DNA of 64,000 nucleotides from Cephalotus follicularis. Its lineage: Eukaryota; Streptophyta; Magnoliopsida; Oxalidales; Cephalotaceae. The notes under the pieces are model-generated. The model ran no database searches. It saw nothing but the letters and a program-made list of their open reading frames with translations, and was not told the DNA's origin. Positions within the stretch are counted from its first letter, which is position 1. Each line of letters starts with the position of its first letter. Shown here piece by piece: positions 1,673-64,000 of the stretch. The stretch is from positions 141,242 through 205,241 of the forward strand of contig BDDD01001774.1 of assembly GCA_001972305.1 (NCBI GenBank), given 5' to 3'. Both the position numbers and the translations under genes were made by a program.

Positions 1673-1744
1673 CAGCCGACTGGACAAACTTTCCAGTCGA
1701 CTGCATTGCTAGCCAGTCGACTGCCATCAGTGGCCAGTCGACTG
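1673..1744. repeat. TCGA-palindrome array, CAGTCGACTG flavour (4 units)
   Basis: Four copies of CAGYCGACTG start at 1673, 1694, 1714 and 1735, so the period is 20-21 bp with variable spacers. The array lies between the Copia-1 pol remnant and its env-position ORF. Copia-G has a matching array at 38169-38240. Confidence 0.9.
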
Positions 1745-1857
1745 GAAATTCGACAGACAGGGTTTAAAATGCCCGATTTTCTCTGTCTCTCTCACTTCTC
1801 TCACTTCTAAAACACCAAAAACCCTAAAAACTCCCATATCCGAACCTGCTATCACAA

Positions 1858-2994
1858 ATGGGACCTAAAAGACAAAAGCATTTGGCTTCAAGGTAACCTA
1901 GAAGTTCACAAGTGAAGATTGATTTCGACAATGAGCTCTTTCTCTCCAAGGAGAAAGAAAATAGGTATAACACTCACTTTAGCTCAGTTAAATTGCATAT
2001 GGAGAAGTGGCTTTCTAGGGATATACTTGTTAGCAATCTTGCTGTAGTGATAACTTGGTTTAATGCTATGGGTTGGCTTGACTACATTTGCTGATCACAC
2101 ACCATATACCCTAGGCTAGTCAAAATGTTTTATGCCAATTTGGAACCCGCAACTACTTGTGTTGCAAATTCTTTTGTCCTAGGCACTCCCATTTGTATCA
2201 CTCCCGACTTAGTTGCCGAAACATTAGGAATTCCCAATGAAGGAATTACTAATTTTCATGATATAGGAAAAACCGAGGCACTAGGGATTTGTCTAGAGCA
2301 ACCAAATGGGAATCCAATTATGAATGTGACTAGTAGTCACTTACCTATTGCTTCTAGGATTATCCTACTCCTTGTTACCAATACCTTTCTTCCTAAAGAA
2401 GGATCACACACACTCCCCTCCGAGCGCGATCTTAAATTCTTCGCTTGTGTCAAAAACGGAACCCATATTAACCTACCCTATCTCATTGTCAACCATATAT
2501 TGTCTAGGCCAAATCCCACTCCATATCCTATGGTTCTTAGTAGGATCCTTTCGACTGTCCTAGCGTCCTTTAACATAGATATCCCGAACGATGAGCAAAG
2601 TGTTAAGCCTTCCCATAAGCATTTAGTAAATAAAGCGGGACTTAGCCATTGTGGCATTGTGTTTGACGATGGTGAGTGGGTAAAGATGCATGGAAGAGGT
2701 AGGGAGCAAGCAAGAGAGCAAGAGCCTGTTAGGGCTGGTGATGATGATGATGAGGAGGAGGAGGATCCACAGCAATATGAGATGCGTCCGAATGTTGGTA
2801 CTAGCAGTGGTAGCAGCAGCAGGCCTACTCTTTATGCACTTATGGCCAGAATGGACCTTGCCCAGGCTGATATCGAGTTTATCAAAGGAGAAATGCATCA
2901 GTTTCGTGAAGGCCAAGAAAACATTCTTAAGGGACAAGCTGACATCCTCTAGTTTCTTCAAAACGCCTTCCCACAGCACCCTCCTCCATCTTGA
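1858..2994 (+). pseudogene. Copia-1 env-position ORF, broken by three stops
   Basis: The frame starts MGPKRQ and ends FPQHPPPS, and matches 38355-39497 over its whole length. Three in-frame stops interrupt it, near 1893-1896, 2092-2094 and 2950-2952, with no frameshift. The middle (FYANLE, NSFVLGTPICITPDLVAETLGIPN, SHLPIASRIILLLVTNTFLP) looks like the putative plant transposon protein domain often found in the env position of SIRE-type Copia elements. After it come an acidic run (DDDDEEEED) and a C-terminal repeat (LAQADIEFIKGEMHQF, GQENILKGQADIL) likely to form a coiled coil. No signal peptide or fusion motif is visible, so an envelope role is not supported. Confidence 0.8.
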
Positions 2995-3558
2995 GCTTAC
3001 ATATGCATCATCATGCTTTTTCCACTTGTATTTTCGAACTTTGCTTTGTAATGTCTTTAATTGTTTTCAGAGTGTGAAAGACAATGTGTTTATGTTCCTA
3101 AGCCTCTAATGACAATATGTATTTTGATTATGTGTTGAATGCAAGAGTATTTCATGTTATTACCTTAATTTGTTTACTTCAAATGTTTAATAGAATTGTG
3201 CTTCAATCTTAATGGATCTCTCTTATTGCATTGTTTTTATTAATAACATTGTATTGGAATGCATTAGTTGAAGAGGAGCTCTTCAATCCGTGCTATGATT
3301 GAGGGGGAGCTTACACTTCTCTTTTTGTTGTTTGACAAAAAGGGGGAGAGAACTTTTATATTTTGCACATTGCTTTGAAGTTGCATATGGTGAATATATT
3401 GCATTTTGATGGAAAAGGTTGTACTCTTGCATTGAGCAAGTGTACTTTGTTATGACAAATGCATTGGATATGCCTATATTGGTAAAATTGGACTTTGGAA
3501 CCAAATTGGGTAAAATTTGTCAAGACTTATGCAAAATATGCATGTTTTGTCAATCATC

Positions 3559-3572
3559 GAAAAGGGGGATAT
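3559..3572 (+). other. Polypurine tract of Copia-1
   Basis: GAAAAGGGGGATAT lies immediately before the TGTTGG start of the LTR, the expected place for the plus-strand primer of reverse transcription. Two more purine-rich motifs (GAGGGGGAGC near 3302 and AAAGGGGGAGAG near 3340) lie upstream. Repeated tracts of this kind are common in SIRE-like Copia elements. Confidence 0.8.
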
Positions 3573-4801
3573 TGTTGGCCTTTGCCACCCCGATTAAATG
3601 TTTACCATGAGTTATTTTGATGATTAACAAACATAAATTACTTGTATGCATAATTCTTTAAGTTATAAATGCATTTACTCACTTGATTCTTTGTCCAAAG
3701 TTGTGCCAAGAGTGTTTATGCAGATACAGGCAATTCCAGCCGACTGGAGAGAAATTCCAGCCGACTGCATCTTCAACCAAAACCCAGAATCTGCAGAAAC
3801 AGCACACCAGTCGACTGACACAGGGGTCCAGTCGACTGCTAGGCAATTCCAGTCGACTGTAACAGGGCATCAGCCGACTGCCATGGGTACAATTTCAGGC
3901 AGAAGCTTCTGTAACATTTTACACCCAATCCAACCGACTGAAGCAGGGGAACAGCCGACTGCCAGGGGGTCCAGTCGACTGCCAGGGATTCCAGCCGACT
4001 GCCATCAATTGTGCAAAATCATACAGTAGGTTCTGTAACTTCTTATTTAGCCTCAAAAGCCGACTGAAGCAGGGCATCAGCCGACTGCCAAGACATCCAG
4101 CCGACTGCCTACAGGATCCAGCCGACTGCCGCACTACCAACGGCTATATTCAAATATACGCGCCATCAAACCAGCTGACTGCCGTCCAAATCCAGCCGAC
4201 AGGATTTGTAACAGACAGTTAAAAATAGATCCGTTGGAGGCTTAACTATTTAAGGAAATTTGGAGCTCTTGCACAAGTGATCAAGCATTCAAGTGCCATA
4301 AAATCTCAAGCTATCTCAAGTACAATACCAAGCATTCATACAATTAAAAGAGATCAATCCAAAGCAATCACCTACATTTACAAAGATTTGTACTTTACAT
4401 TACATACACACTTGTAGCTTTGTTTAGAGTTGTGCTTCATTGTAAACAAATTCGCTACGAATTTGTATACACTTAAACTACTACTTTCACACATACAAGA
4501 GAGGTTGTCTCTTGTATTGCTCGGTTGGAGCAAAGTGTAATTCACTTGGTTGGAGCGAAAGTTTGTTGGAGCTCGGTTGGAGTTTCAAGCCCGGATTGGG
4601 GCATACCTAGTGAATACTCAAGGGGAGGCCTTGGGGAGTGGACGTAGGCAGATTGCAAAAACACTATACATCCGTTTGCATTCTCTAAACCCTACACTCT
4701 TTACTTCCCGCATTGTGTGTTTGAGTAATTAATTTTATTGGTGGTATTTTTGCTAGATAAATTTTTATTAGTCTATTCACCCCCCCTCTAGACTTCCAAC
4801 A
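3573..4801 (+). mobile_element. Copia-1 3' LTR (complete, 1229 bp)
   Basis: The LTR begins TGTTGG right after the polypurine tract and ends CCAACA, giving the short terminal inverted repeat expected of a Copia LTR. Its second half recurs at 1-562. About 40% of it is taken up by a palindrome array at 3737-4202. It ends inside a Gypsy-A LTR (4802-5793), so Copia-1 inserted into that LTR. The target duplication cannot be checked because the left end lies outside the window or at the gap. Confidence 0.92.
3737..4202. repeat. TCGA-palindrome array, CAGTCGACTG/CAGCCGACTG flavour (about 16 units)
   Basis: CAGYCGACTG units start at 3737, 3758, 3808, 3829, 3850, 3871, 3931, 3952, 3972, 3992, about 4058, 4078, 4098, 4119, 4172 and 4193. 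Most neighbours are 20 or 21 bp apart, and longer gaps are near multiples of that. Spacers differ (CACAGGGGTC, TAACAGGGCAT and others) although a GCAGGG-like core recurs. The exact palindrome CAGTCGACTG alternates with the C-for-T variant. Confidence 0.92.
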
Positions 4802-5793
4802 GACTCCTCTTTAAAACGATGGAAAGACGTCGATGTCTTTGAAAGGCATCGATGTCTTTCCCTATTTATGTAGAGAACTGGCCGAAGACGTCGATGTCCT
4901 TGGAGAAAGGCGTCGACGCTTTTCAATAAAAATAGCCTGAGAATGCGCATCGATGTTCGGCATCGATGTCTTTCCAGGGGAGAGACATCTCGAGGCAAAG
5001 ATGTTGACGTCTTTGAAAGGCGTCGATGTCTTTGCTGCAGAATCAAGGATATAGCACACAGATAAAAAAGACATCGATGTCTTTGGGCTAAGGGTCGATG
5101 TCTTTTCCGGGAAGAGTCGATTTTTGACAGAAAATAGGGCCAATCTCAACCCAAAATCTAATTAAAAGCCATTCTTTGGAAACTAAGGTTTAAAATCAAT
5201 CATTTAAGGTTAGTAAAACTTGTTATAACCTTTCAATTTCAATTTCAATCTTCCTAGATCCATTAGGTCAAGGGAAAGCAATAAAAACCCTAGTTTTACC
5301 ATTCACTTCAATTCAATCATTCAATCACTCAATCAATCATGCAATTCAGTCAATCAATCAATAAAGCAATCGGCAATTCAGTAAGGAAGTCCTACCTATC
5401 ACTGAAGCTTCAAAGATAAGCTTACAATCTCTCAATCGGCTGCTATATCGTTCGATCACCAATCCACTACTTGGAATCGTTGTCCTTGTCGATGGAGATG
5501 CAATCCGGGGCTGCAATGGTGGAAGATGGAGGCTGCTCAGCTAGAGAGAGAGAGGGATAAGGATAGAGAGAGAAGAAGAATGAGAAAAATGAGACAAAGG
5601 AGAGAAAGAATTGACTTAAATAGTTGATTCGGTCAACTCTCTGAAACTCGGCCCAAAAATCCCGACTATACATGCATATGATCAATACAATATCAATAGG
5701 TATGTGAATACCTCAATTCAATACAGTTCAGTACTGTCCAATACGGTACGATGTATGCATGAACAGTACAAAAAGGGAATTCGGGTCGTCACA
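4802..5793 (-). mobile_element. Gypsy-A LTR, 5' part, minus strand
   Basis: Read on the minus strand it starts TGTGACGACCCGAATTCC at 5793 and matches the start of the plus-strand LTR at 43748: TGTACTGTTCATGCATAC, then a TATTG-rich stretch, then AGTCGGGATTTT. Only about 990 of some 2500 bp is left, because Copia-1 has inserted at 4801/4802. At 5793/5794 it abuts Gypsy-B pol in the opposite orientation, so it had inserted into Gypsy-B. The next five bases, GTTTG, would be its target duplication, but the other copy is not in view. Confidence 0.85.
4815..5125. repeat. TCGA-palindrome array, GACATCGATGTC flavour
   Basis: Repeats of the form AAAGRCRTCGATGTCTTT are spread through the Gypsy-A LTR. 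The unit at 5067-5084 is a perfect 18-bp palindrome, AAAGACATCGATGTCTTT. Neighbouring centres at about 4830 and 4849 are 19 bp apart. The same flavour sits at the matching place in the other Gypsy-A LTR (44450-44780). Confidence 0.88.
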
Positions 5794-8277: not shown

Positions 8278-8573
8278 TGTAACGCCCCCGATCCAAGTTC
8301 ATTTTATGCTCAAAACGAACCTCAAGGATCCGGTGCGTTACGGGGGGTGAAACCTTTAACCTTTTAAACGATATTGCTTATATCGTATTTGATAAACTCA
8401 TAACTTCAAAATATACTTTTAACTTTAAACACTAAACTTCACAGGATCTGATTCATGATATTCAATAATCGTATAATCATTTATGATTCATCATATTTAA
8501 TAGTTTCATTGTACACCTTTGCAATCTCTTAAAAACTTTTCGAATCATCATAACATTTAAATACCAATCTTGA

Positions 8574-11317
8574 TGTAATACCATGCTTGCCTGTACGTAT
8601 TTTTCTTACGGGTTTTATCTGTTTTCGTTTAAGTAATTGTATGTTTTTTGTTGGATTTATGTTTTGGGCTGATTGATACCAGCCTTGGTTTTGGGCTTGT
8701 TAGTATGGACTTTGTTCTTGGGTAAATTAGTCATATTATTATTATTATTATATATTCCACAAATCAAATATTTTAAAAACATTTTAAAATACCACCTTTT
8801 ATTTTATTCTTTTTCTTTTCCTTATTTTCCTTATTTTCTTTTATTTCCTTTTATTTCTTCTCAAACTCTCCCTCTTTCTCACGACATCTCTCTCCCTCTC
8901 AAACTCTCTCTCCCGAAATATCTCCTTCTTTCCTTCTTCTCTCCCTAAAAATCAGCCCTTTTTCCTTATCCAGCAGATTGGATTTTCCCTTTTTGCTATC
9001 CTTTCCCCGTTTGGTCTCTTTTGCTATATATGTATGCCAAAGCAATCGAGTCAGCCATCTCTCTCTGTTGTGGTTGCTGCCGAACCTTCCATTGGAGAAT
9101 CATTGTGTTTTTGGTGTTCTTGCTTCATCAATCAGGTTAGTTTCTTCATGGTTTCAATGTAGGAATCGGTTTTGCAATGTTTGGTATAGTTGGCAGGCTT
9201 TGAATTTTGATGTCTACCTCTCGTTTTCCTTTTTGATCAGCCATTGTGTCATCCGAATTGGTGTTTTTGCAACTATTTTTGACATCCATCAGGTTGGTTT
9301 CCATGTTGTTATGTCATGGTGATTGGCTTTATATTGCTGTCTATTGAATTCGAATGTTATAGGTTGCTAGAGAAGGAATTGTCCTACATTCTGCCTTCTT
9401 GCTTTCTTGTCAAATAAGTTCTGTGTTTATAGCAATCTGTAGACACCTAGGAAGTGTCATATAATCTGGTATTAGGAATTGGCAATGGTAATTTGACAGA
9501 AAATTTAATTGAAATTAGCATCCAATGGTTTGCTCCTCTTGCTCACAACTCATTAATCGCTGTCAATGTATCTAAATCGAATTTAGTATTATGATGCCCT
9601 TTTTAATACCCTATGGAGTCCTTGTAAGTGTTGGTAGCTTCCTGGTATTGAATGAATTGAGTTTGGGCAGCAAGATTTCACCAAACTGTCATATTTCTAT
9701 TTTCTGTCGCCCAGAACAGTCGACTGCCCATAGAACAGTCGACTGTCTAGTTTGAGTAGTCGACTGCATTGTGCAAACAGTCGACTGTCTTGTGTTGAGT
9801 AGAAGGCTGGACCCCTGATTCAGTCGACTGCTGGCATGTCCAGGTTGAGTAGTCGACTGGCCCTGTTGTGTAGTTGACTGCCACCCCTTGTTTAGTCGAC
9901 TGGATTCTTAAAACATTCGGCTGGATTGTCCTGTAAACTCCTGTTTTCATCCGTTTATTCTTCCAATGATCCGGGTCTATTCTAAATATCATTATGATTC
10001 TGTTTTATGTTCAAAATGAATTTTAGACCCTTATTTGACATTGTTATGTTGAATAGATTTTGTGCTACGTGAAGCAAATTAAGTTTACCGGATATTCGTA
10101 AGTTAGTCTGTGATCGCATAAGGTACGAATTTTCGTTCCTTGATAAACTCTTACTGATTCAGTTCTGTTTTGAGAATAAGTACAGATTCTTTGTTTTGGG
10201 TTATATTTCGGTTTTATGAATATGTTCCCTTTTGGTTTATGAACTCTGTTATATTTGGATTTTGAAAATAAAGTCACTTGATATTTTATGAGGTAAATAT
10301 TTCTGACTTTATGAATTCAGTTATGATGTGTTTACGAAACGTTATGCAATCATCTCTTTATTGTGAAATTAAATGAGTTGATTTTTCTGATTATGAAAGC
10401 ATGTGTTTATATCATTTGAGAACGATTTATGATTATGTTTGGGAAATCTTTCTACGTATTTTAAATTGATTTGATGAAATCAAGTTTTTGAAATGGTGAA
10501 ATATTGAGCTTTTATAACCACCTATGGGGGTACCATAGGCATGCTGTGAGCCTGGCACGGGGGTATGACACTTTCCGTAACGGTGTGATTTGTTTACGGC
10601 GTCTCTCTGGTATATCCTTGGATAGGATTTGTGATAGAGGCGTATGGATCGATCCTAGTTATATGTTTTGGGATATGGGAATTTTATGTGTAGTGCCGTA
10701 TACTGCAATTCCATTTGGCAATGTGGGTGTCGCGAACCCCTTGCTACTATGTGTTTCCGATATGTTTTGGGTTTTGGTGCTCAGTTATGGAACCTATGTT
10801 TTGGAAAGGTACACTTTATGGTTTCAAGTTATGAACTTGTTTTATATGTTTTGCCGTGGGTATTTATAAAGTATGGTTAAACTATTTTATTGCTTAAGAT
10901 TTCAGTTTTAATGTACTTTTGGAAATCTTCCTGCTTTAAAATATTGTTTACTGTTTTATATTCTATATCCGTACTGAGGTTTGCTCAGCCGCGTTTTTTG
11001 TTTCCATGCGGCAGGTTATCAGGAGCAAAGGGGCAATGTGTGATGAGAGTGACTCCCATATGTCTGAAGATCGTCTAGTAGCTGATCCCTTTATGTTTAT
11101 GTGGTCATAGTGTGACCCGTTTAATAAACAATATGTTAATTTGATTTATGACTTTTGGATTTTGAATAAGTTTCAGTTTATGATCGGTTTCGATATGTTA
11201 TTGGTTATGCTTTAAACCATCACGTTTTTAGTAAAGATGAACGTTTTTAATATGATATGTTATGTTAAGTTTCCGTTATATGCACCTGTGGGACTCCCAC
11301 AGATCGGGGGTGTTACA
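8574..11317 (+). mobile_element. Solo LTR-2 (plus), nested in solo LTR-1
   Basis: It starts TGTAATACCATGC and ends GATCGGGGGTGTTACA. CTTGA stands on both sides (8569-8573 and 11318-11322), an exact 5-bp target duplication. The 2744-bp LTR shares with LTR-3, LTR-5 and the Gypsy-C LTR a block CTGAGGTTTGCTCAGCCGCG (10974-10993) and the CCTATGG...CCATAGG block near 10520, so all belong to one chromovirus-type family group. It contains pyrimidine-rich sequence (8810-8960) and a palindrome array. Short open frames within it look incidental. Confidence 0.92.
9718..9923. repeat. TCGA-palindrome array, CAGTCGACTG flavour, in solo LTR-2
   Basis: Units start at 9718, 9736, 9757, 9778, about 9800 (degenerate), 9821, 9850, 9871, 9893 and 9914. 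The modal step is 21 bp. The array begins about 1145 bp from the LTR start, the same place as in the related Gypsy-C LTR (28783-28990). Confidence 0.9.
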
Positions 11318-13235: not shown

Positions 13236-13520
13236 TTAAAGCGTCGGAGGTTAAGCGCTAAGCGTCGCCGCTTAGGCTCCAGAGTGCTGCCGCTTTGTCC
13301 TATAAGCGCTGCCTGTTGATGCATAACAAAGGAAAATTAACGCTTGAAAGCGTCGCCGCTTTCTCCATTACACTATAACAAACTATCGACGCTTTAACTC
13401 ACAAATTCGGTACCCACAAAAGAAGCCAAACCGTCGACGCCTTAAAATAACTGTCGACGCTTTATGGCATTTCACCAAACTGTCGACGCTTTAAAATAGG
13501 CAGTTGACGCTTTCAAAATC
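13236..13520. repeat. TCGA-palindrome array, GCGTCGACGC flavour, in solo LTR-1
   Basis: The motif AAGCGTCGACGCTTT and its decayed forms (GTCGCCGC, GTTGACGC) recur through this stretch. TCGA or TTGA centres begin at 13386, 13434, 13454, 13483 and 13504, with steps of 20, 29 and 21 bp in the last part. No CAGTCGACTG unit is present. Confidence 0.85.
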
Positions 13521-14059: not shown

Positions 14060-14290
14060 TGTAAGCCCCCGAAAATTATTGTAATTATTTATGATGCATA
14101 AAAATTATGGAAATATTACCTTGGGGGTTATGATGAATAGTATGATTGTTTACAAATTTTGTGGCCAAACAGCCTTAATAAGTGAACTGAACAATTATAT
14201 ATAATGGTGTATGGGACCCCAAGCCTTACTTATTATTGCAAAACGCCAAAGGCGGCTGCCCCTTTCTCTTCTTTATATTACCTTACCCTC

Positions 14291-14465
14291 TGCCTTACAA
14301 AAAAAAAAAAAAAAAAAACAAGGAAAAGAAAAGAGAAAAAGGGAGCCAGTGGGAGAAGAAGAAAGAAAAAGGGAGAAAGGGAGAGCCAACTGGAGAAAGG
14401 AGAAAAGAAGAAGAAAAAGAGAAAAAAGAAAAGAAAAGAAAGAGAGATCGACACAGGGGAGGAAA
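14291..14465. repeat. Poly(A) and purine-rich (GGAGAAAGAAG) tract
   Basis: An A run of about 18 bases is followed by some 150 bases almost wholly of A and G. Open frames here encode only Lys, Arg and Glu repeats and are not credible genes. Confidence 0.85.
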
Positions 14466-15084
14466 GGAGGAGAGCGACAGCGGCATCTCACTACCCGCTG
14501 GCGCCATTAACGCCATTCTTGCGCCAAGGGAAGAGGTGAGCTCCTTAAACCTTCTTCTTCTCCTTCTCTGTCACTATTTCCTCTTCACCGTTGACGCCAA
14601 ATCATGGAGCTCCATTTTCAGCACCTCCCTTCCTCCACTGTTATCGTCACTGGTGAAGACTGGGCAAAATCAGTGGGCTTGACACGGCAGTGTGTGGAAT
14701 CAGTGATTGCAAGGAGCTGACAGTTCAGTTGGCAGTGACGGGGGAGAAGAAAGAGCAGGGAAGTGAGGCGTGAAGCGTTGGCAGTTCGGCATTGGCAGCA
14801 AATCCGCCATTTTGCAAGCCTAATAATCAATTTTGGAGGTAGGTTATACTATTGCAACATTCTTGCATTTTGTATGCATTATTGTTGTTTTGATGATCCA
14901 TGGGTGTTTATATGTGTAATAACCGCAAATTCAATTCGTGTACATTGTAATATTTTAATAAAATGTGCACTCATTTGAATTTAATGTCCCATTATTATAA
15001 TTTCGGTGATTGTCAATTGCTTGGGATGAAAGGATGTACAATTGGTGAAGTATCAAACTGAAGAAACCCTAAAACAGCCATCGA

Positions 15085-15163
15085 CAGCCGACTGTCACAG
15101 GGGACCAGTCGACTGTCTGAGGCGTGAGTGGACAGTCGACTGGCCAATGCATCCAGTCGACTG
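15085..15163. repeat. TCGA-palindrome array, CAGTCGACTG flavour, in the Gypsy-B LTR
   Basis: Four units start at 15085, 15106, 15133 and 15154, with steps of 21, 27 and 21 bp. The first unit is the CAGCCGACTG variant. Confidence 0.88.
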
Positions 15164-16214
15164 GATCGGTACAGAACAGGTGTCTGTGCATGCCTGTTAG
15201 ACTGAACCAAGGGGGCATTGCATGGGGGACAGGTGTTGAGCGAGGTCACCACCTGCCAGGGCATGCAAAAAGGCATGCTTGCATGTCCTCTATCCTCTCT
15301 GCAAATTGCAGACCTGCAACCTGCAAAAATTAGAAGAGAAAAGGTGAGAAAGAGATAGAAAGAAGAGAGGAAAAGAAATGCATGTGATGAGAGAGGGAGG
15401 AGTTAAAGGACTCTGGTGAATTCAAGGTCCCTGAACCCTATATCATCCGTGCATGAGCTGAGAGTGAGTGTTAGAAACACTGAAAATTGAGGAGAGTTGC
15501 TGGGATTATTGGAGCTTGCATTGAGGATTTGGAGTGGAGCTCAAAGACTTGGAAGCTTAGACTTCTCCTGGTAAGTTCAATTCGAGCTCCCTGCTTAAGT
15601 AGTACTGTTAATGATGCAAATAGGAAGGTTAGTTATCTTCTATAATGGTTAAGAATCAACAACTTCTAGAATTGAAATAGAATGTGATATGGTTCAAGAA
15701 AATGGAGATTATACCTCTAATTGGATTATAGTTGTTGTTAATGTCAGAATATATGCTTACTGGTTTCCTTAAGTATGTATATACCTTATGTCAACAAGTT
15801 AAGATCAATGAATCCGAAATTTAAATATACTTGACTTAGAGTTCCAAAGAGAAAGTGATAACATGGAAGTTAAGACTTAAGGAATTGATATTAGGCTACT
15901 AATGAAGTAGTAATCATAGCTGACATTTAGTCATACCTACTGATTAATAACTGAACAACATGCATACATAGATTGAACCTGCTGGAATTAAAAGATTGTT
16001 GGTGAAAAGGCTTTGGAGACTCAAAGAGAAAGATCACTCCAATTGATCTTGGGATAAGCTATTGAGGTAGGGGATTTTGACATGTTTTTGAACATATAAC
16101 ATGTATAATATGTTATGATGGTTGATACTTGATTGCATGTCGAATTGGATTGAGTTTAGATTGAATTTGTGCATCCCCTATTTTGAAAATGCTCCTGGAA
16201 TTCGTATGAAATCC

Positions 16215-16356
16215 AGAAGCGTCGACGCTTACGCGTGACGGTCGACGCTTTGGTACAAAAATGGCATAATAAGCTTTAGAATGTCGACGCTTAGATTGTC
16301 AGTATCGGCGCCTAGTCATTAACCATCGACGCTTAACAAACAACTGTCGACGCTTT
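16215..16356. repeat. TCGA-palindrome array, GCGTCGACGC flavour, in the Gypsy-B LTR
   Basis: TCGA (or TCGG) centres begin at 16222, 16242, 16284, 16305, 16326 and 16347. The steps are 20, 42, 21, 21 and 21 bp, so one unit looks lost. AAGCGTCGACGCTT at 16217-16230 is a perfect palindrome. This LTR thus holds two arrays of different flavour, 1.1 kb apart. Confidence 0.9.
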
Positions 16357-16879
16357 GAAACAGTAGGTGTAGAAATGTGTACACTGATCGATTGAACTGT
16401 TTGTGGTTGCAAATATCCCTGATATGTTATATTGTAACTACTATTACTGTTGTTGGGTAAAATTTTTACTGTTATGAATACATATTCAAGAATTTTACCA
16501 ACCTAATGCTTAAAGCATAAACAATGAATTGTAAACGGTTTTCTAAAAGAAAATCTTATTATCATACCAACTGCTATTTTCCTCTTAATAGAGGCACTAT
16601 TACTGTTTTGTTCTCTAATTGAGAACCATTATTGAATTGACATCGTTTTCCTCCAAAGAGATGTACGATAAATGGCTTGTTATATGTTTCTAAAGAAAAC
16701 CACTTTTATATTGCATATTGCTGATATATGTAATATTATTATTGAATGCTTGCATTGATTGTACTTGTTGCCGGTGGTCGAGTGATGGCTGTGGTCACCG
16801 ACTACGGTAGGGATCCTGGGTGCCAGGAGATCTCCTAAACTTATCTGCATTGCAGATCTTATTTGTTAAACTACCTGCC

Positions 16880-24510: not shown

Positions 24511-25547
24511 AAATCTGTAACACCCCTGGACGGCGGGAGTCGTTACGGGTCATACTACAGAACTTATCATAACATAACTAATCAAATCATTACTTTATTA
24601 GCCAAAAACGTGGCGGTCTAATAATAACTGAAACATTAAAAACTTAGCAATTAATCATTTGCGGAAAAACTTAAACATATCCAAGTTCCAAATTTAAAAG
24701 CTGAAAACATAACTATCACTGTTTATAACCACTAGACATAACATAGGGATCACACTCCTAGGGATCCAAAAACATAGGGTAGTCATCACTCGTCACACAT
24801 TTCCCCGCTGCTCCCGATAACCTACCGCATGGAAAACAAAAACGCGGCTGAGCAAACCTCAGTACGGATAAGGGAAATAAAAACAGTAAACGATAAGTTT
24901 TAAAAAAAAAAGTAAGATTCATAACAGAAATCTTAAGTAATCAAAACAAATAAACAATCGTAAAATCACATTATTACTTTCATAAAATCCATATAACTTT
25001 CGAAACATTTACGATGCATTTCATAAAATCATTTATGAATCATAGGTCATACTGAGCCACATACATATCACATAACATAAATTTGGCAAGGGAGGCGCTA
25101 ATTCCACATGCCCACTAGAATTGAAGTGTACGGCACTACACAAGTCAATTCTCACATAACACATATCCGATCACACCTCAGATTACATAACATATACTAG
25201 AATCAATTCATACGCCTCTATCATACATAGCGGATCCATAAATCCACCTCATGGGATTTATTCATAACACTCAGAGACGCCGCAGTCTAATCACACCGCT
25301 ACGGAAGTGTCACGTCCCCGTGCCAGGCCTACGACGTGTCTATGGTACGCCCCATAGGTGGGTACTGTAACGCCCGAGATTTTCATGTATTATAATTTCA
25401 CAATGTATTTGTACTTTTGAATTGTGGAATTAATAAAGGATGAATTTTTCGAATTTGGTGATGTTTTCCCATCTATATAATGTTGAATTGTTGTGTTAAA
25501 TGCTAAAAGAATGTTAAAAGGGCTAAAACGACGTTGTTCTGGGGAAA

Positions 25548-25700
25548 CACGTCGACGCCTTTATAATCACGTTGACGCCTTTGAGGCAAAAGGGCGCACG
25601 TAGCTGCATGCACATGCACATCGATGCTGACGAAGATGTCGACGTCCTTGTGTAAAATTGATGAATGACATCGACGTCTTTGGAAAGACGTCGACGCGTT
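25548..25700. repeat. TCGA-palindrome array, mixed GACRTCGACGYC flavour, in solo LTR-4 (first)
   Basis: Centres begin at 25552, 25572, 25621, 25639, 25671 and 25691. Steps are 18-20 bp or longer gaps. Units read CACGTCGACGCC, GACATCGACGTC and AGACGTCGACGC. Confidence 0.85.
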
Positions 25701-26554
25701 AACTTCGAATTCCAGGCACGTTACTCTTCTGACATGTAACGTGCAAAGGGGAATCTGGTTAGAGGCTTTTGCAGGCACCTTGAAGCATGCATTGGGACAT
25801 GTTGGTCATGCACATGCCTCCCTAGCCTGCATAACTGAGATTGTGAGGACAAGTGTGGCTTGAGTTGGTGCATGCAACATGTGCAAGAAGAAAAGGGACA
25901 TGTGTGCTGGGAATGGAGGGGAGAATGAAGGTGGCACTGTCTGGCATGAAGGCTGAGACGAGGACTGAGAAAAGAACCCAGCTGCTGCATGCAGAGGTGG
26001 GGGTGTATCCTAGACACATGTGACCTGCAACAAAAATGCAGAGGAAGAAGAAAGGAGGGTGAGTTGCATAAAAGACAGCCTCCACCTCCTACCTTCGGTT
26101 GTTACTGATTGAGAAAGAACCAGACACTTGAGAGATCACTGTGAGTGTGAGGAAACAGAAAGTAAAGGAGAGAAAAAGTTTCCACCATTGTTGAGCTTGG
26201 AGCTTGGAGCTTGGAACTACTAGTGCAGCTACGGGACGGACCTAGAGGGGCTGTTGTGACCGGATTGGAACGTAAAGAGGTGGACCTCCAGTTCCTAACT
26301 TGGGACATAAGGTAGGGGAAAGCCATAACTGTAATCTTGAGTTTGATACTCATGAATGGTTTATGGTTTTGGATGTATAAAATGCATGATTCTTGAAATG
26401 ATATTGTTACTGGATTGATGCCATGATATGCTACATATGTTTTGAGTATCTGCATGTTGGTTTCTTACCTTGATTACCCGTTATTATGCATGATTATGGG
26501 TTGTATTGGCTACTGTGTGTTAAGTCATGAGGAAGAAGACGACTGCTGCTAGAT

Positions 26555-26885
26555 AGACATCGACGCCTTTTAATGAACATCGACGTCTTTTGAGTTTTGC
26601 CTTGTTACTGATTGAAAGGGATCGACGTCTATGGAAAGACATCGACGCCTTAGGCTACCTGCCTGGATTTTGACGTATTATACGTCGATGCCTAAGGTTC
26701 CTACCTTAACGCGTCGACGCCGTCAACAATTCGCTGTTGTTTTAAGGTTCCAGACCTTGAGCATCGACGCATATGGATTAGACATCGATGCCTTCTCTGC
26801 AGAACGCGCTAACCTTAAGGACTTGGACATCGACGCCTGTTGGAAAAGACATCGACGCCTTTTGGATAGACATCGACGTCTTTGG
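26555..26885. repeat. TCGA-palindrome array, GACATCGACGCC flavour, in solo LTR-4 (second)
   Basis: Repeated GACATCGACGCCTTT-like units begin with centres at 26560 and 26580 and run to about 26880, with steps close to 20 bp or its multiples. Both arrays of this LTR are of the same flavour. Confidence 0.87.
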
Positions 26886-28782
26886 TACTGTTTGGGGTTT
26901 TCTTCATCTAACGATACGAAACGATCCCGATTCCTGTTAGAGTGCATTTGAGCATATGTATGCATTGCATATGCACTGTTTACTGCTTGATTGTATACTG
27001 TTTGTGAATTGTTTATGATTTTTAAAGTATTGATATTTAGAAATGCATATATGAACTCGGAATAGGATATTTTGAGTATGAAAATATGTATTGGTTAAAT
27101 AACGTATTTTCGACCGAACTGATGAACAATTTACACTACTGAAACTGTTTATTGATATTTTCTTCTGAAAATGTCTATTTTCAAATGTTGTCACTTTTGG
27201 AAACATTCTGGAAACCAACCTGCCTGTTGTCGATCTAAACGATCATTACTGTTTACTGTACTGTTAATCCTGAATTCACTATTTGCTCTGTAAATTGCTA
27301 TGTGTTTGTGTTTGAGTTACTAGTTGCATGGCGGAGGCTGCCAGCGATGACTAGTGGTAGGGTTGTACCTAGGGTCCAGGAGCATGGCTAGGTGACTCAC
27401 TGTACTGTTGCCTCGCTTGGTGGCCTGATGTAGGGGCCGAAGTGGGAGTGTAGCGTGGGGCCAGGAGTTGGCGGTGCTATATACTGCCTGTTGTGGTCCT
27501 ATGTGGACATACTGACTGTTGTTGTGGTCCTATGTGGACATACTGTACTGCCTGTTGGTCCTTTTCGGACATTACTGTGTTTGTTGTTGTAGCCCTGGCC
27601 GGGTTACTATTGTACTGTTACTGCATATGTATATTTCTTATATATGTAACACTGATATTTTACTGTACTGTTATATGTATATATATATTTTGACATATGT
27701 ATTAACTGGGTCTCCACTGCACTGCATCATTTATGCATTCATATCACAATATGCATTATGTTGATCCCGAGTTACTGTTATTGCTTAGCCGAGTGAGGAC
27801 AAAGGCTAACCCCCTACTTTACAGATTGATGCAGTGGACCGGTTGGACTGACATGGAGGAAGATCAAGTTGTTATATTCTTGATTTTGCTTATCCTCCTG
27901 CTTTGTATTAAACCTATGTTGGTTATGGTTTTCGGATGTACCGTTGTTATGGTATTGTTTCTGATGGAGTTTAATCTTGTACTGTAATTCACGCTCCGTT
28001 TTATGGGCGATTAACTATGACGACTTGTATTTGGGTAGGGTGCGGTATGGGACGCACGTTACGAGTTTACAGCTTATGAACTTGTTATGCTTCCGCAACT
28101 GACAGTTTGTTTAAAAGTTTTAAGTTTTATGGTTTTTACATGAGCTGTATTTTATGTTAATTGCCTTTACCGCTTTAATGTTACGTTTCTCTTGAACGGG
28201 GTGTGACAGGTACAATACTCAGTATTCAATTATTGCGAAAGCATTGATTTATCAAAATCAATTTAAAACCATATAAAATATGCTTTCACAAAACATATCA
28301 GAAAACTGCTCACAACGGTATCATAACATACATTTCATAACCCAAATCATCAACTCATTTATACTTCGCTATAAAGAGATGATCGTAACATATCGTATCG
28401 TTTCATATCATATGCATAAAGTCGGAATTATTTAAAAATGTGAAACCAACTTCATTTTCGAAACATGTCAAAAACATTATCAATTTCATAAACGAAGAAG
28501 CATAGCATAAAGCAAAACTGATTTTATTTGATAAGATCATAAGAGTGTATCAAGGAACGAAGTATCCGTACCTTATGCGTTCACAATGCACTTACGGATA
28601 GGTGATTTAAACAAACTCCACTTGAAGCACAATAATCTAAAAGACACCAAAGCCATACGTATAAGAGTCTAAGACACATCAGAAACATTTAACAGACTCA
28701 TTACTGTGTTTGGAAGAGACTCAGATCGATTCGAGGAACAAACGGATCAAAACAGTTGAAAACAGTACATTTCTGGGCAAAA

Positions 28783-28990
28783 CAGTCGACTATTACAGAG
28801 CACCAGCCCACTGGGAAGCTTGGCAGTCGACTAATCAGAAGGGTCAGTCGACTACTCAAACCAGAATGCTGGCAGTCGACTGGTTCATAGATCCAGTCGA
28901 CTACTCAACCCAAGACAGTCGACTGTGTTCATATGGCAGTCGACTGTTCATCCAATCCAGCCGACTGTCCACAAGAACAGCCGACTGTTC
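28783..28990. repeat. TCGA-palindrome array, CAGTCGACTG flavour, in the Gypsy-C LTR
   Basis: Units start at 28783, 28804, 28824, 28845, 28873, 28894, 28916, 28937, 28958 and 28978, with steps of 20-22 bp except one of 28. Several units end CTA rather than CTG. Position within the LTR matches the array of solo LTR-2. Confidence 0.92.
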
Positions 28991-38168: not shown

Positions 38169-38240
38169 CAGCCGACTGGACAACTTGTCCAGTCGACTGC
38201 CTGCCATCCAGTCGACTGGCATTAGTGGCCCAGTCGACTG
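38169..38240. repeat. TCGA-palindrome array, CAGTCGACTG flavour (4 units)
   Basis: Units start at 38169, 38190, 38209 and 38231, the counterpart of 1673-1744 in Copia-1. Spacers have diverged between the two copies while the palindromes are almost unchanged. Confidence 0.9.
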
Positions 38241-43747: not shown

Positions 43748-44449
43748 TGTGACGACCCGAATTCCCTTTTTGTACTGTTCATGCATACTTTGCACCGTAT
43801 TATACTGTATTGAATTGTATTGAACTGTATTGTATTGTACTAGCTTGAAATAAGTATATACCTATTGGCACGTATGCATGTATAGTCGGGATTTTGGACT
43901 AAGTACCGAAGAGATGGTGAATTGACTATATAAGTCAATTTCTCACCCTTTTCTCTCATTTTCTTTCTATCTTCCTCTCTCTCTACACTTCTCCTCTCTC
44001 CCTAGATGAGTAATCTCCATAGCAGCTCTGGATTGGCCTTCTCCATCAACAAAGATAGCATTTGCAAGTTGTAGCATACCAATTGAACAAGAAAAGAGAG
44101 TGGGCTTTTGGGAATCTCCGGCTTTGATCGATTGTTTGTTCAACCGTTAAAGCTGCTATAATAGGTAGGACTTTTTACTTGAATTACCTACAGCTTGTAT
44201 GGATTGATTGATTGAATTGCATGATTAAATGAGTGTATTGAGTGAAATTGTAGGTTTTAGGGTTTTTATTAAATCCTTAGCCAAATTGATATAGAAAATG
44301 ATAGAATTTGTAAATTGAAGGTAGTAACTCATTTTACCAACCTTAAATGATTGATTTCAACACTTGGTTTTCAAAGAATGGGTTTTAATGGGTTTTTGAC
44401 CTGAGATTTGGCTATTTTTCTGTATAAAATCGACCCTGCCCAGCAAAGA

Positions 44450-44780
44450 CATCGATCCCCAGCCCATGGACATCGATGTCTTTTGCTTGAAATGCAGCAT
44501 CATTGATTTCTGCAGCAAAGACATCAATGTCTTTCAAAGACATCGACGCCTTTTCCCAGGATTTCTCTTCTTTGAAGAAGACATCGATGCACATTCCCAA
44601 GCCATTTTGGATGAAACGCGTCGACGCCTTTGTCCAAGGACATCGACGTCCTTAAGCCAGATCTCTATACAAATAGAGAAAGACATCGATGCCTTTCAAA
44701 GACAGCGATGTCCTTCTACAATTTTAAAGAAATGTCTTGAAATGCATCGATGTCTTTCGCCAAAGACATCGACGCCTACA
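44450..44780. repeat. TCGA-palindrome array, GACATCGATGTC flavour, in the Gypsy-A LTR
   Basis: Centres begin at about 44452, 44473, 44503, 44524, 44543, 44584, 44621, 44643, 44686 and 44705. Steps are 19-22 bp or close to twice that, with one of 30. Units such as GGACATCGATGTCTTTT and AAAGACATCGACGCCTTTT have lost symmetry at one or two places. Confidence 0.88.
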
Positions 44781-45270
44781 GTGCAGATTGGGAATTAAAC
44801 TGTTTTAAAGCTGATTTTCAACTCCTTTTCACATCGCTGCTTGACCGGAGCCTCACTTGAGGTATTCAAGCGTTGAAACACAGTTTTTCTACGATTTTCA
44901 AAGATTGGATTGATAAATTTATAGAGTGACAGAGTGAGCCATAGGCGACGATCCAGTGACTTTCATCAACCGGATAGATATTTCTTCCTATCTCGTTGAT
45001 TCGATTGTCACCGTCTATTGGCTACTGATTGATTGATTGAGCCATAAGTGTTGTGAGTCTAAGTTCGGAACGTTGGACGCTCATTCCCATTTCTCCATCA
45101 AACATCACCACTTATCGGCATTTGTGCTGACAGACAGATTGATTTTATTGTATGAATCCTATAGAGCGACCTTATGATTCGTATAGGCATATTAGGCTCT
45201 CGACTCTGTCCACCTATTTCGTCGATCATCTCATTTATTGTATTGACTGATCCCTTACGGTCGAGTTTAC

Positions 45271-45493
45271 CGATTGATGCTCCCGGAGGGCCGTAGCTCC
45301 CTAATGGTTTAGTAGCTCCCCCATGGCTTAGCACATCAATATTGTTACTAACTGACGATTGATGCTCCCGGAGGGTCGTAGCTCCCTAACGGTTTAGTAG
45401 CTCCCCCATGGCTGTAGCACATCGATATTGTTACTGACTGACGATTGATGCTCCCGGAGGGCTGTAGCTCCCTAACGGTTTAGTAGCTCATCG
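45271..45493. repeat. 85-bp tandem repeat (2.6 copies) in the Gypsy-A LTR
   Basis: Units starting CGATTGATGCTCCCGGAGGG begin at 45271, 45356 and 45442. Each continues through TAGCTCCCTAAYGGTTTAGT, and the third is cut after about 52 bases. The copies differ by only a few bases. Confidence 0.93.
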
Positions 45494-57624: not shown

Positions 57625-57806
57625 TATATTAATTACATTATGATACTTATAACTAATACTTTTTTTATTTTTCACTGTTTAGAATTTTATCGATATATAT
57701 CACTAATGTAAATTTTAACTAAATAGATTATCTATTGATATTTTATTGAATAGGTTAATATTTTATTTATAGAGTATATTATAAAACTGTTAAATTTTGC
57801 ATGTGC

Positions 57807-62221: not shown

Positions 62222-62224
62222 GTC

Positions 62225-63589
62225 TGTAATGCCCCAAACCCCCAAGGGTCAACCCCCAAGGTTTGATGCGCTACTAACAGTATCATTCATTTACTAATAT
62301 TCAGCGGAAATTAAAAACTTTTAACAATATAATAATGCATGCAGAATAAATCCAATTAAATATCATTTGAGTGGATAAACCCAGTGTTATACAATACTGT
62401 TATGGCAGTGGTACGCCGACATCCACTGATCGGTGCCATGGTGTCTCTCCTCGGCACATAGCCATCTCGGACATGGCCACCTTGGCACATGCCAACGGCA
62501 CCTCGGCACTTGGTGCTAGATAGCCATGGTTGGCTTCTCAGCGCATGACAGTGGAGAGCCAAGGTGTTTTGGATGGCAACGAACAGTGGATTGCATAGCT
62601 CATGGTGGCATCCTCGGGCATGCACTTTGGCGTCCTCTGGCGTTTGCATGGAGAAGACGCATACGGGGGACAATGGCGTCCCCTGCATGTTGGCGCCTTT
62701 GATGCCTCCAGTGAACGGGGTGATGGCAGAGGACAATGGTGTCCTCTGCACTTAATATCCTCGGACGCTGCAAGAATTAGTAGTTACAAAGCTCATTGTG
62801 GCGACCTTGGTAGCCTGGCATGCTCGGCATATGTGGACGCCCAGGAGGCATGCCGAGCTGGGCTATGCATGCGTTGTGCGCACGGGAGACATACAGAGAC
62901 CCTATACCATCTATATATATATATAGCATTTAGAGTTCGTATGGAAAGGCAGGTGATGCCATCTCGGCATAATAACATAACATGCACTATATCTAGCGCA
63001 GATAACCACTAACATTCCTCAGTCATTCTACTCCTTTTATGTCATTGTCTAACTCTAATTCAAGCAAGCATCATACACATTTATAACAATATACAGAGAC
63101 ATTAAAGGCTGAGTAGGATGTAGATCCTACCTTGAATCCAAGAGCTTCCTCTCCTAGTCTTCAATCTGCATCTTTCTTTTGCTCATTCCTTGGTAGCTCT
63201 CCCGTCTCTTTCTCCACAATTTGTCAACAACTTCTAAAACACTATCTTCTCCTTTTTATAGCTGGTGAAGAAGGTTCCAAAAATCTGAAGACAATTCCAG
63301 CAACCTCCCTCACATAATTGGCTGAGGTCTAAGGAACGGGCTCATTTCTCCCTTCTTTCCAAATTTGGCCCATATCTCTTAGTTCCCTTTTTTTTTATAT
63401 AATAAAACAGCCCAATAGTAATATATTTTAGGCCCAAATACCATTTGATACATTTCCAAGGCCTCACAACAACTAAAGCCCATATAGCAATATTTCAAGC
63501 CCAATTCTTTATTAATTCAATTTCTACCCCAATACATTTTGGACCCAGCTTTCATTTTTTTAATTATTTATAAAATTCTGGGTATTACA
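62225..63589 (-). mobile_element. Gypsy-I 5' LTR (complete, 1365 bp)
   Basis: On the minus strand it starts TGTAATACCCAGAATTTT at 63589 and ends GGGGCATTACA at 62225, next to the primer site. GGAAC follows at 63590-63594 and precedes 58180 on the far side, so the whole of Gypsy-I (58180-63589) has an exact 5-bp target duplication. It carries CTCGGCATGC-type short repeats but no TCGA-palindrome array. Confidence 0.93.
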
Positions 63590-63594
63590 GGAAC

Positions 63595-63838
63595 TACTAC
63601 CCGCGTACAGATGTAAGATGCAGATGCAGCAGGCATATGCAATGATGAGGTACAATAATAATCCATACAATATGTAGTACAGTCCATTTAATTCGTTCAA
63701 TACAGTCATTCACAATCATTAACAGCCACTAGCTATAATCCTTCCTCGACATCTCTCTACTAAAGGAGGATCGGTAACGCACTCCAGACATTAAGGCAGG
63801 GGAGATGGGACAGGAATAACATTTTAATTTAGGCATAC
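63595..63838 (-). mobile_element. LTR-J, right part
   Basis: This continues LTR-J beyond Gypsy-I, with CATTCA-rich sequence (ACAGTCATTCACAATCATTA) like that inside Gypsy-I. It is cut at 63838 by a Copia LTR, so its start is not in view. Confidence 0.65.
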
Positions 63839-64000
63839 TGTTGACGATTAAGTCTCAATCCTTGTTTCGATGATAACATATTTGCATCTAACTAATTTAC
63901 TTGATGTGCAAGGAATTACAAGTTGAATATCAAAGTCTAAAACCTATCTGCAGAAAAAGAAGTCGACTCCTTTCCAAATAGCATCGACGTCTTTTGTACA
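63839..64000 (+). mobile_element. Copia-K LTR, first 162 bp
   Basis: TGTTGACGATTAAGTCTC opens an LTR closely matching the Copia-H fragment (43635 to 43550, minus) and related to the Copia-G LTR. The last 40 bases have AGTCGACTCCTTT and AGCATCGACGTCTTTTG, the first units of a TCGA-palindrome array. It runs off the window. Confidence 0.87.

Follow-up and report, generated by a model that had tools for sequence, protein, structure and literature searches.

How did two unrelated kinds of retrotransposon come to carry the same arrays of short palindromes? Arrays centered on TCGA lie in long terminal repeats (LTRs) of both Copia and Gypsy elements within a 64,000-nucleotide stretch of the Cephalotus follicularis genome (the window). 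The excess of palindromes over dinucleotide shuffles in the window bears out the initial annotation's observation of such arrays, and the genome-wide counts show that they are not confined to the window. The window holds 241 TCGA sites and 62 centers of TCGA palindromes of at least 8 bp, against a mean of 12.9 and a maximum of 22 in 100 dinucleotide-preserving shuffles; for palindromes of at least 10 bp, the corresponding figures were 29, 3.7, and 10. Exact counting in the 1.577-Gb assembly gave 197,377 copies of CAGTCGACTG and 73,186 of GCGTCGACGC, far above the reversed controls (939 and 121, respectively), so that these two words together have about 270,000 copies in the genome. Genome-wide counting covered these two words, and GACATCGATGTC was counted in the 64-kb window, where the three words occur exactly 20, 5, and 2 times. 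A sample of 20 pieces (199,371 bp, from contigs spread by number and weighted to small contigs) held 24 copies of CAGTCGACTG and 9 of GCGTCGACGC, against second-order Markov expectations of 0.07 and 0.014, and among all 1,024 palindromic 10-mers ranked in this sample only TATATATATA and ATATATATAT were commoner than these two. Viral contigs contained no match to CAGTCGACTG N9-12 CAGTCGACTG. At least sixteen arrays had been annotated in the window; we found 15, close to that figure, comprising six of class A and four of class B detected by an array-level scan, together with four of class C and the start of one of class B seen by eye. The positions 3573, 4802, 14060, 24516, 35656, 43748, and 63839, annotated as LTR coordinates, are LTR ends in the sequence.

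The boxes fall into three classes, A (CAG(T/C)CGACTG), B (AAAGRCRTCGAYGYCTTT), and C (AAGCGTCGACGCTT). Each box is a near-palindrome around RYCGAC, with arms CA..TG in class A, AAAGAC..GYCTTT in class B, and AAGC..GCTT in class C; the sense-strand core is GYCGAC in classes A and C and mostly ATCGAC or GTCGAC in class B. A third class had been annotated as GACATCGATGTC; it exists but is broader than that word. In arrays of three or more boxes, RYCGAC was present on at least one strand in 169 of 189 class A boxes and 81 of 105 class B boxes and absent from both strands in the other 20 and 24, GACATCGATGTC included. The density of RYCGAC in arrays was 8 to 55 per kb, against 1.64, an enrichment that is partly circular because the words defining the boxes contain RYCGAC. 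The spacing of class A and B boxes peaks at 20 to 21 bp. Helical phasing beyond a 21-bp pitch was unconvincing; class A intervals of 27 to 29 bp recur among Gypsy LTRs.

The Copia arrays lie in Sirevirus-type elements. The LTR at 3573..4801 (+ strand), which begins 2 bp after the end of a AGGGGGAT tract and has a poly-C stretch near its 3′ end, contains a class A array of 16 boxes with no more than one mismatch (3737..4202, +, by scan), and 11 sense-only RYCGAC sites fall in 3730-4205. The 5′ LTR at 35656..36794 (+) has class C boxes, several of them degenerate, at 35783-36155 (+, by eye), upstream of TATATATA at about 36238. A further Copia LTR (63839..64000, +), sharing 80% identity with the 35656 LTR in its initial 90 bp, shows class B-like boxes by eye from 63963 and is cut by the end of the window at 64000. 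By eye, three Copia LTRs have a TATA-like box a short distance beyond the end of their arrays, the box in the 3573 LTR being a weak match. Arrays also lie just upstream of four of five Copia env-position ORFs, two in the window (2095 and 38265) and one each at the sampled loci L030 and L032. The two in the window are class A arrays of four boxes found by the scan, one at 1673..1744 (+, spacing 21/20/21) upstream of ORF 2095-2952 in a Sirevirus-type remnant and the other at 38169..38240 (+) directly upstream of ORF 38265-39119, and both ORFs match PF20167. For the third env-position ORF of the window (40023-41438, − strand), the same scan detected no upstream array; the annotated rule of one such array per element thus holds for the first two ORFs and fails for this one.

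Sireviruses are defined by the 5′ LTR/internal junction CA/ATTGG TATCAGAG(C) and by several AGGGGGAG polypurine tracts that follow ENV, the final one 10 bp before the 3′ LTR. The 35656 LTR ends in CA and is followed by ATTGGTATCAGAG at 36795, the next base being A rather than C; ATTGGTATCAGAG does not follow the LTR copy at 1-562. Two of the env-position ORFs are each followed by a pair of AGGGGGAG tracts (3302 and 3341; 39794 and 39825), and the tract adjoining the 3573 LTR is AGGGGGAT. Sireviruses also have a poly-C integrase signal close to the 3′ end of the LTR and an env-like ORF; here poly-C in the form CACCCCCCC is present at 4778 and 36769, along with the env-like PF20167 ORFs. When the Copia reverse transcriptase (RT) was used in a protein search, the best 120 of 7,987 matches were copia-type proteins, and the named ones all came from plants, a result with no bearing on the arrays.

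The initial annotation knew of no named plant repeat class that fits these arrays, but the repeated-motif (RM) boxes of Sireviruses do. In the available text of Bousios 2010 (PMC2829016), RM boxes are palindromic, occur in many copies that cluster within the LTR ahead of the TATA box and again 5′ of ENV, vary in sequence by element, and are specific to Sireviruses among the Ty1/copia elements compared. A single symmetric pair of positions separates the Vitis RM, CGGTCGACCG, from CAGTCGACTG; this RM and the Tnd-1 RM, ACAATCGATTGT, are also centered on TCGA (PMC2829016). RMs number at least eight per element, lying in the LTR ahead of the TATA box with further copies upstream of ENV; here, 16 boxes lie at 3737-4202 and 4 at 1673-1744, counted with up to one mismatch. 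The CGG-CCG core signature of RMs is missing, the cores being CAGTCGACTG and CAGCCGACTG; Tnd-1 is a published exception to that signature (PMC2829016). We regard the Copia arrays as largely of a known kind. Unlike Sirevirus RMs, the boxes form three classes in one genome, are mostly directional when asymmetric, and occur also in Gypsy chromovirus LTRs.

The second kind of host was recognized by its proteins. Chromoviruses combine a Gypsy-type RT with a chromodomain at the end of integrase; ORFs in the window match PF00078, PF17919, and PF00385, and tblastn gave matches at sampled loci. Matches to integrase plus chromodomain precede the arrays by 0.2 to 0.35 kb in L013, L025, and L026; L013 and L026 also have an RT match farther upstream. 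In L038, too, arrays come after matches to Gypsy integrase and chromodomain, and the host element in these four loci is not a Sirevirus. From LTR length alone, we take the Tekay clade to be a candidate placement for the Gypsy elements. The 3′ LTR of a chromovirus at 8278..11317 (+, TGTAACGCCCCC...GGGGGTGTTACA) directly follows integrase and chromodomain matches and contains a class A array of eight boxes (9717..9923, +, by scan). The LTR at 14060..16500 (+, 3′ end approximate), which starts just past a chromodomain match at 13760-14014, has a class A array at 15085..15163 (+, by scan, spacing 21/27/21) and a class C array at 16219..16360 (+). On the − strand, the interrupted 5′ LTR at 24516..29150 (5′ end approximate) is followed by GATTTTTGTATCAGAG and then by PR-RT at 21472-23796; its class A array of 10 boxes (28783..28987, −, by scan) includes two nonpalindromic RYCGAC boxes, both antisense to the LTR. 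Inserted in this LTR is a solo LTR (25366..28208, +, TGTAACGCCC...GGGGTGTGACA) with GGTAC on both sides and class B arrays at 25548-25698 and 26556-26880 (+, by scan). Two Gypsy-type LTRs starting with TGTGACGACCC hold class B arrays, one at 4802..5793 (−, start at 5793, array 4826-5081) and one at 43748..45300 (+, 3′ end approximate, array 44448-44776). Class C-like boxes were seen by eye at 13340..13510 (+, GTCGACGCTTT) and 34340..34470 (no strand assigned, AAGCGTCGAC). In several Gypsy LTRs a second array may lie downstream of a putative TATA box, unlike the arrangement in Sireviruses, the TATA calls being weak.

The window and the sampled loci thus agree with the initial annotation that LTRs of both superfamilies carry arrays, which are not confined to one LTR family, and classes A, B, and C are each represented in LTRs of Sirevirus-type Copia elements and of chromodomain-bearing Gypsy elements. 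The presence of arrays in Gypsy LTRs looks new. Among the matches listed for the chromovirus, Sirevirus, CBF/DREB, and LTR-exchange literature there was no report of these boxes in Gypsy LTRs, a result that leaves absence unproven, most subscription papers lying outside the search, and no paper listed for the literal string CAGTCGACTG concerned retrotransposons by its title. Tnt1 and Retrolyc1 have tandem U3 enhancer boxes that are subfamily-specific and tied to the stress response, but these belong to one Copia lineage and their motifs are unlike those described here. There is a precedent for sharing between kinds of element in maize, where the Sirevirus palindrome is also reported in Helitrons (PMC10760457). 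The maize motif, CACCGGACNNNGTCCGGTG, differs from the boxes here, and the available text of the maize accounts (PMC5311732, PMC10760457) mentions neither sharing with Gypsy chromoviruses nor class switching.

In 44 arrays with assigned orientation, 137 of 274 RYCGAC cores were the symmetric GTCGAC, and the remaining 137 were sense-only on the LTR strand in 112 cases versus antisense-only in 25. This count omits unassigned or second-copy arrays, namely, two in L009, one in L013 at 1709, that in L017, three in L021, two in L031, two of class B in L032, one in L037 at 1362, those in the second LTR copy of each of L030 and L032, and the one that precedes env in L030. Boxes on both strands were seen in L017, one L031 array, and L037 at 1362, all outside the count. 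The direction is not absolute, since the 8278-type Gypsy family carries its arrays inverted (all three informative arrays antisense, three others uninformative) and two further Gypsy arrays are antisense. Strict selection for palindromes is unsupported, because symmetric combinations of class B arms are not in excess and asymmetric boxes are mostly directional.

These features bear on the proposal that the palindromes are kept for RNA or DNA hairpins in the LTR transcript, as a source of small RNAs or a packaging signal, as has been argued for maize Sireviruses. The palindromic units could pair with one another, RNA folding gave z scores of −4.6 for a Gypsy class A array (9700-9930) and −8.2 for a Gypsy class B array (44440-44790), and maize Sirevirus palindromes are described as small-RNA hotspots (available text of PMC5311732 and PMC10760457). 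The Copia array at 3730-4205, however, had a z score of −0.18, with 42 of 100 shuffles folding as well, and it contains eight asymmetric CAGCCGACTG boxes against four copies of CAGTCGACTG. In class B, the inner arm pair showed no symmetric excess (odds ratio 0.38, P = 0.08), and the outer pair had G and C on both arms in 0 of 60 boxes (P = 8e-5). The Copia score, among the three arrays folded, rules out hairpins as a function common to all arrays, and we consider it improbable that they explain the boxes.

A DNA-binding protein is the best reading among the three mechanisms offered by the initial annotation, which had suggested a dimeric protein; hairpins are not general, and no micro-element with fixed boundaries was seen. 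The site, however, looks at least partly directional (RYCGAC) rather than strictly palindromic as for a dimer. Among CRT/DRE (CBF/DREB) cores, PLACE lists GTCGAC as CRTDREHVCBF2 and RYCGAC as CBFHV, alongside DRECRTCOREAT, RCCGAC (available text of PMC9138379). The core of all three classes fits RYCGAC, which most class A and B boxes contain, a test that is partly circular; the arms and near-palindromy of the boxes are not part of the catalogued site. The cores suggest an AP2/ERF factor of the CBF/DREB type as a tentative and rather doubtful candidate, a 6-bp match being weak evidence when other factors could read the same boxes.

Homologous LTRs allowed boxes and their surroundings to be compared. 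In six pairs, boxes were 86 to 100% identical (155/180, 85/90, 57/60, 69/70, 58/60, and 80/80), compared with 58 to 78% for spacers and 55 to 79% for the remaining sequence, although global alignment favors box-to-box pairing and may thereby overstate how well the boxes are conserved. The margin was smaller for L013 and L025 (boxes 86%, spacers 76%, rest 79%). The annotated view that symmetric cores outlast the spacers is right insofar as boxes exceed spacers in conservation, but roughly every second core lacks symmetry, and these asymmetric cores are mostly directional. Could the arrays be functionless minisatellites, formed by tandem duplication and amplified with their elements? Their near-tandem 20- to 21-bp units would fit, as would the duplications inside arrays (in the 3573 LTR, 3812-4003 versus 3935-4130). 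CG and CHG sites, as in the boxes, are expected to decay fast in methylated elements; the boxes have nevertheless been retained while spacers diverged to background, which counts against neutrality, as does the recurrence of the same few classes at the same LTR positions, both among homologous LTRs and across the two superfamilies. We judge neutral duplication very improbable.

The same comparisons showed that the class at a given site can change. Class A arrays in L013 and L025 stand where the solo LTR at 25366 has class B (collinear flanks 62 to 78% identical), and the 14060 LTR has A then C where L026 has A then A (68% over 1,307 bp). Class B likewise stands opposite class A in L028 versus L025 (82% over 1,075 bp), L022 versus L013 (73 to 78% in three blocks), and L037 versus L025 (77% over 1,217 bp), and L038 has class C at both sites with flanks 65 to 82% identical to L026. 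L023, with class B at the first site (only three boxes), resembles the class A-bearing L025 and L026 only in blocks that are not fully collinear. Thus, in related Gypsy LTRs the positions of arrays are kept and the occupant is of class A, B, or C, a pattern that looks new. Identity drops toward the 5′ part of the LTR in these comparisons, so whole 5′ LTR blocks, beyond the arrays alone, may be what differs. Such switching is also what a small mobile element homing into LTRs could produce, but no common ends or target duplication were noticed around arrays, the number of boxes varies from 3 to 17 over 50 to 500 bp, and the sole class B insertion flanked by a duplicated target is the ordinary solo LTR at 25366. 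We give this explanation almost no credence.

The initial annotation had rightly asked whether the arrays were exchanged between families or arose repeatedly. Among 1,320 Copia-Gypsy spacer pairs, 28 matched at eight or more bases (shuffle mean 2.8) and 7 at nine or more (shuffle mean 0.32), values reached by none of 500 shuffles in either case, although the growth of arrays through internal duplication makes these pairs nonindependent. The first spacer set, from which the three arrays of L021 (at first unassigned, but Gypsy-like) were omitted, gave 11 matches in 765 pairs versus 1.5 when shuffled. The sole 10-base match was equalled by 12 of 500 shuffles, and the two 9-base matches of the first set were equalled by 5 of 300. 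Copia and Gypsy class A arrays therefore share spacers beyond chance, which also looks new. Under pure convergence, Copia and Gypsy would have evolved boxes separately, the same host factor offering both the best expression niche, and no sequence would have been exchanged. The greater conservation of boxes than of spacers and the pitch common to classes A and B are compatible with this, and Sirevirus RMs of distant monocots and eudicots are near-identical despite very low overall similarity (available text of PMC2829016). Convergence would not predict shared class A spacers such as TCACAGGGGAT (Copia L032) and TCACAGGGGAC (Gypsy 15085), nor the 18-bp class B box AAAGACATCGACGCCTTT common to Copia L015 and the Gypsy 43748 LTR, and we consider it unlikely. 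Spacer sharing, together with the differing classes in homologous LTRs, favors exchange over pure convergence as the probable history.

From these sequence comparisons, the arrays are probably modular, enhancer-type LTR repeats of the Sirevirus RM kind, bound by a host protein and shared by Copia Sireviruses and Gypsy chromoviruses. Each would present a run of boxes at a 21-bp pitch, or two helical turns, as candidate sites for a sequence-specific host protein, and would drive or tune LTR transcription. Blocks of array would move between LTRs through recombination, possibly by template switching between co-packaged RNAs or by ectopic conversion between nested copies. It is conceivable, at a little short of even chances, that the two superfamilies draw on one pool of interchangeable array cassettes, written in three or more box alphabets, that move horizontally between Copia and Gypsy and replace one another wholesale at fixed LTR sites; elements would then change their regulation by capturing cassettes instead of evolving it gradually. 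The occurrence of the same boxes, in three interchangeable versions, in Gypsy chromovirus LTRs would mean that unrelated retrotransposons converge on, or trade, common regulatory switches. It would open to testing the evolution of LTR control regions, the activation of both superfamilies at once by a single host factor, and the share of the plant's stress-factor binding capacity that lies in its transposons.

The TCGA-centred palindrome arrays proposed in the initial annotation proved to be real. Palindromes of at least 8 bp were centred on 62 of the 241 TCGA sites in the window, against a mean of 12.9 and a maximum of 22 in 100 dinucleotide-preserving shuffles, and exact copies of CAGTCGACTG, GCGTCGACGC and GACATCGATGTC numbered 20, 5 and 2. 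We then searched the assembly (1,577,397,061 bases in 9,746 contigs, the window being C1774:141242-205241) and found both words counted to be far above their reversed controls: 197,377 versus 939 for CAGTCGACTG and 73,186 versus 121 for GCGTCGACGC. TA repeats aside, these two were the top palindromic 10-mers in 20 pieces of at most 10 kb each, taken from contigs spread by number. Our sample of the same genome beyond the window comprised about 248 kb (loci L009 to L038) and eight overlapping 3-kb loci (L001 to L008).

As read from the arrays, the boxes formed three classes: class A, CAG(T/C)CGACTG; class B, AAAGRCRTCGAYGYCTTT; and class C, AAGCGTCGACGCTT, whose arrays were mostly identified by eye. 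Distances between neighboring class A and class B boxes peaked at 20 to 21 bp. Each class was present in both superfamilies, in agreement with the initial annotation, which placed the arrays in Copia and Gypsy LTRs alike. Class A occurred in Copia LTRs at 3573-4801 and in L030, L032 and L034, and in Gypsy LTRs at 8278-11317 and in L013, L025 and L026. Class B occurred in the Copia LTR of L015 and at the start of the 63839 LTR, and in Gypsy LTRs at 25366-28208, 43748 and 4802-5793 and in L028 and L037. Class C occurred in Copia LTRs at 35656-36794 and in L036, many boxes of each being degenerate, and in Gypsy as the second array of the 14060 LTR and both arrays of L038. A tandem array (45271-45489; 86-bp unit, 2.6 copies, 94% match) is found downstream of the class B boxes that the 43748 LTR carries.

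The Gypsy elements matched reverse transcriptase (RT), integrase and chromodomain, and their clade may, tentatively, be Tekay. Their LTR begins shortly past the chromodomain (at 8278, at 4407 in L013 and at 4854 in L019). A minus-strand Gypsy 5′ LTR ending at 24516 holds a class A array and is interrupted by the class B solo LTR 25366-28208, with GGTAC on both sides. All of L024 consists of a satellite whose period is about 163 bp; it also runs from about 7742 in L026, where it begins directly beside a Gypsy LTR end, and copies of its 12-mer AAACGATAAATT number 46 in L024 and 10 in L026. Host genes are few in this repeat-rich window; one is a fragmented NUP1-like nucleoporin gene (50091-53321, minus strand), and the named relatives of its 302-aa piece come from plants that include Salix, Gastrolobium and Vitis. 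A 0.17- to 0.3-kb repeat has three related copies (57806-57979, 58179-58495 and 62224-62540; 85 to 98% identity), one of which adjoins a primer-site-like sequence, TTGGTATCAGAG, at 62221 on the minus strand.

The Copia elements bear the marks by which PMC2829016 defines Sireviruses: a CA/ATTGGTATCAGAG junction at 36795, polypurine tracts (AGGGGGAG at 3302, 3341, 39794 and 39825), poly-C near the 3′ ends of the LTRs, and env-position ORFs matching PF20167. No Sirevirus junction follows the LTR copy at 1-562, and we therefore did not call the span 1-4801 one element. An array upstream of each Copia env-position ORF had also been reported; this held for four of the five ORFs seen, the exception being that of 40023-41438. 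In that element (40023-41512, minus strand), no box array precedes the env-position ORF, unlike in the other four, and the ORF follows the RT ORF almost directly.

Passages of PMC2829016 describe palindromic repeated-motif (RM) boxes in Sirevirus LTRs, where they precede the TATA box, with further boxes 5′ of ENV; CGGTCGACCG in Vitis and ACAATCGATTGT in Tnd-1 are among them. The classic Ty1/copia elements compared there are reported to lack RMs, and those passages do not discuss Gypsy LTRs as carriers. The arrays had been thought to match no named plant repeat class, but on this description the RM boxes are such a class. The Copia arrays are alike in kind and therefore count as a new set of RM boxes, one in which the usual CGG-CCG core is missing.

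Array sites were kept while box classes changed between related LTRs. In L013 and L025, class A boxes lie at LTR positions +165 to +307 and +1128 to +1341; in solo LTR 25366, class B boxes lie at +183 to +322 and +1191 to +1504, and the flanks are collinear at 62 to 78% identity. L028 (class B) was 82% identical to L025 (class A) along 1,075 bp in the 3′ half. L022 (B) was 73 to 78% identical to L013 (A) in three blocks. In both comparisons the array regions did not align. L037 (B) was 77% identical to L025 over 1,217 bp. In the comparisons involving L028 and L037, identity dropped toward the array-bearing 5′ part of the LTR, so it may be the whole 5′ LTR block that is exchanged. A second Gypsy lineage carries A and A (L026), A and C (14060 LTR) or C and C (L038); relative to L026, the 14060 LTR was 68% identical over 1,307 bp and the L038 flanks were 65 to 82% identical. 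Three class B boxes occupy the first site in L023, whose similarity to this lineage (L026, 14060 and L038) is not fully collinear. The Copia LTRs 35656 (C) and 63839 (B) were 80% identical across their first 90 bp. Class A and class B boxes are intermixed in one Copia array upstream of the env-position ORF (L030, 3490-3674), a possible class-switching intermediate.

Copia and Gypsy class A arrays also share spacers, although the numbers that follow overstate independence because spacers within an array are related to one another. In a first set of 17 by 45 spacers, 11 of the 765 pairs matched at 8 or more bases, whereas shuffles and random Gypsy LTR 11-mers each predicted 1.5; two pairs matched at 9 or more, a number attained in 5 of 300 shuffles. 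In a second set, 30 distinct spacers from new Copia arrays (L030 and L032) were compared with 44 first-set Gypsy spacers. Matches at 8 or more bases numbered 28 of 1,320 pairs (shuffle mean, 2.8) and those at 9 or more numbered 7 (mean, 0.32), neither reached by any of 500 shuffles; one pair matched at 10 bases, as did 12 of the 500. The recurrent common spacers were of the TCACAGGGGA and CCAAGGCAA types. Such sharing favors exchange between LTRs over purely independent origin.

We compared six homologous pairs, taking the boxes from one member of each and scoring them in the other. Boxes were identical at 155/180, 85/90, 57/60, 69/70, 58/60 and 80/80 positions versus 58 to 78% for spacers and 55 to 79% for the rest; one window segment belongs to two of the pairs, and pairing of box with box may be favored by global alignment. 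The first pair had the smallest margin.

The asymmetric boxes are mostly directional. Read in the LTR sense, ten class A regions contained CAGCCGACTG 21 times, its mirror CAGTCGGCTG twice and the symmetric CAGTCGACTG 35 times. Within arrays of at least three boxes, 259 pairs of nonpalindromic boxes shared a strand and 20 did not, a bias that array growth by duplication would in part produce. Across 44 arrays oriented by their LTRs, we counted 137 symmetric GTCGAC, 112 sense-only RYCGAC and 25 antisense-only cores. By array, some being homologous and hence nonindependent, sense versus antisense stood at 10 to 0 in Copia, 24 to 2 in the main Gypsy lineages and 0 to 3 in the 8278 Gypsy family, with 5 tied or uninformative. 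The 8278 family therefore looks to have captured its arrays inverted; of the three informative ones, that of L037 (at 4187) was assigned to the family by adjacency to an aligned block. All three classes have RYCGAC as their sense core. Its density was 8 to 55 per kb in these arrays and 1.64 per kb in the pieces spread over contigs; since it is part of the words by which boxes were defined, this difference is to some extent circular.

RNA hairpins, another explanation offered at the outset, do not account for all arrays: folding z scores for three arrays were −0.18 (Copia A), −4.6 (Gypsy A) and −8.2 (Gypsy B), so folding is not common to all, and symmetric combinations of class B arms were not in excess. 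The arrays would most likely act as enhancer repeats bound by a host factor, given that boxes and pitch are conserved and that in Copia LTRs the arrays precede a TATA-like box. PMC9138379 catalogues GTCGAC and RYCGAC as CRT/DRE cores of CBF factors. CBF/DREB is, as a candidate binder, a lead only. Conservation of RYCGAC itself would predict a large genome-wide excess of CAGCCGACTG over both CAGTTGACTG and CAGCCGGCTG, whereas under strict symmetry CAGCCGGCTG should be common. If, in related species, class composition shifts jointly in Copia and Gypsy, this would point to a shared pool of arrays or a shared host factor.
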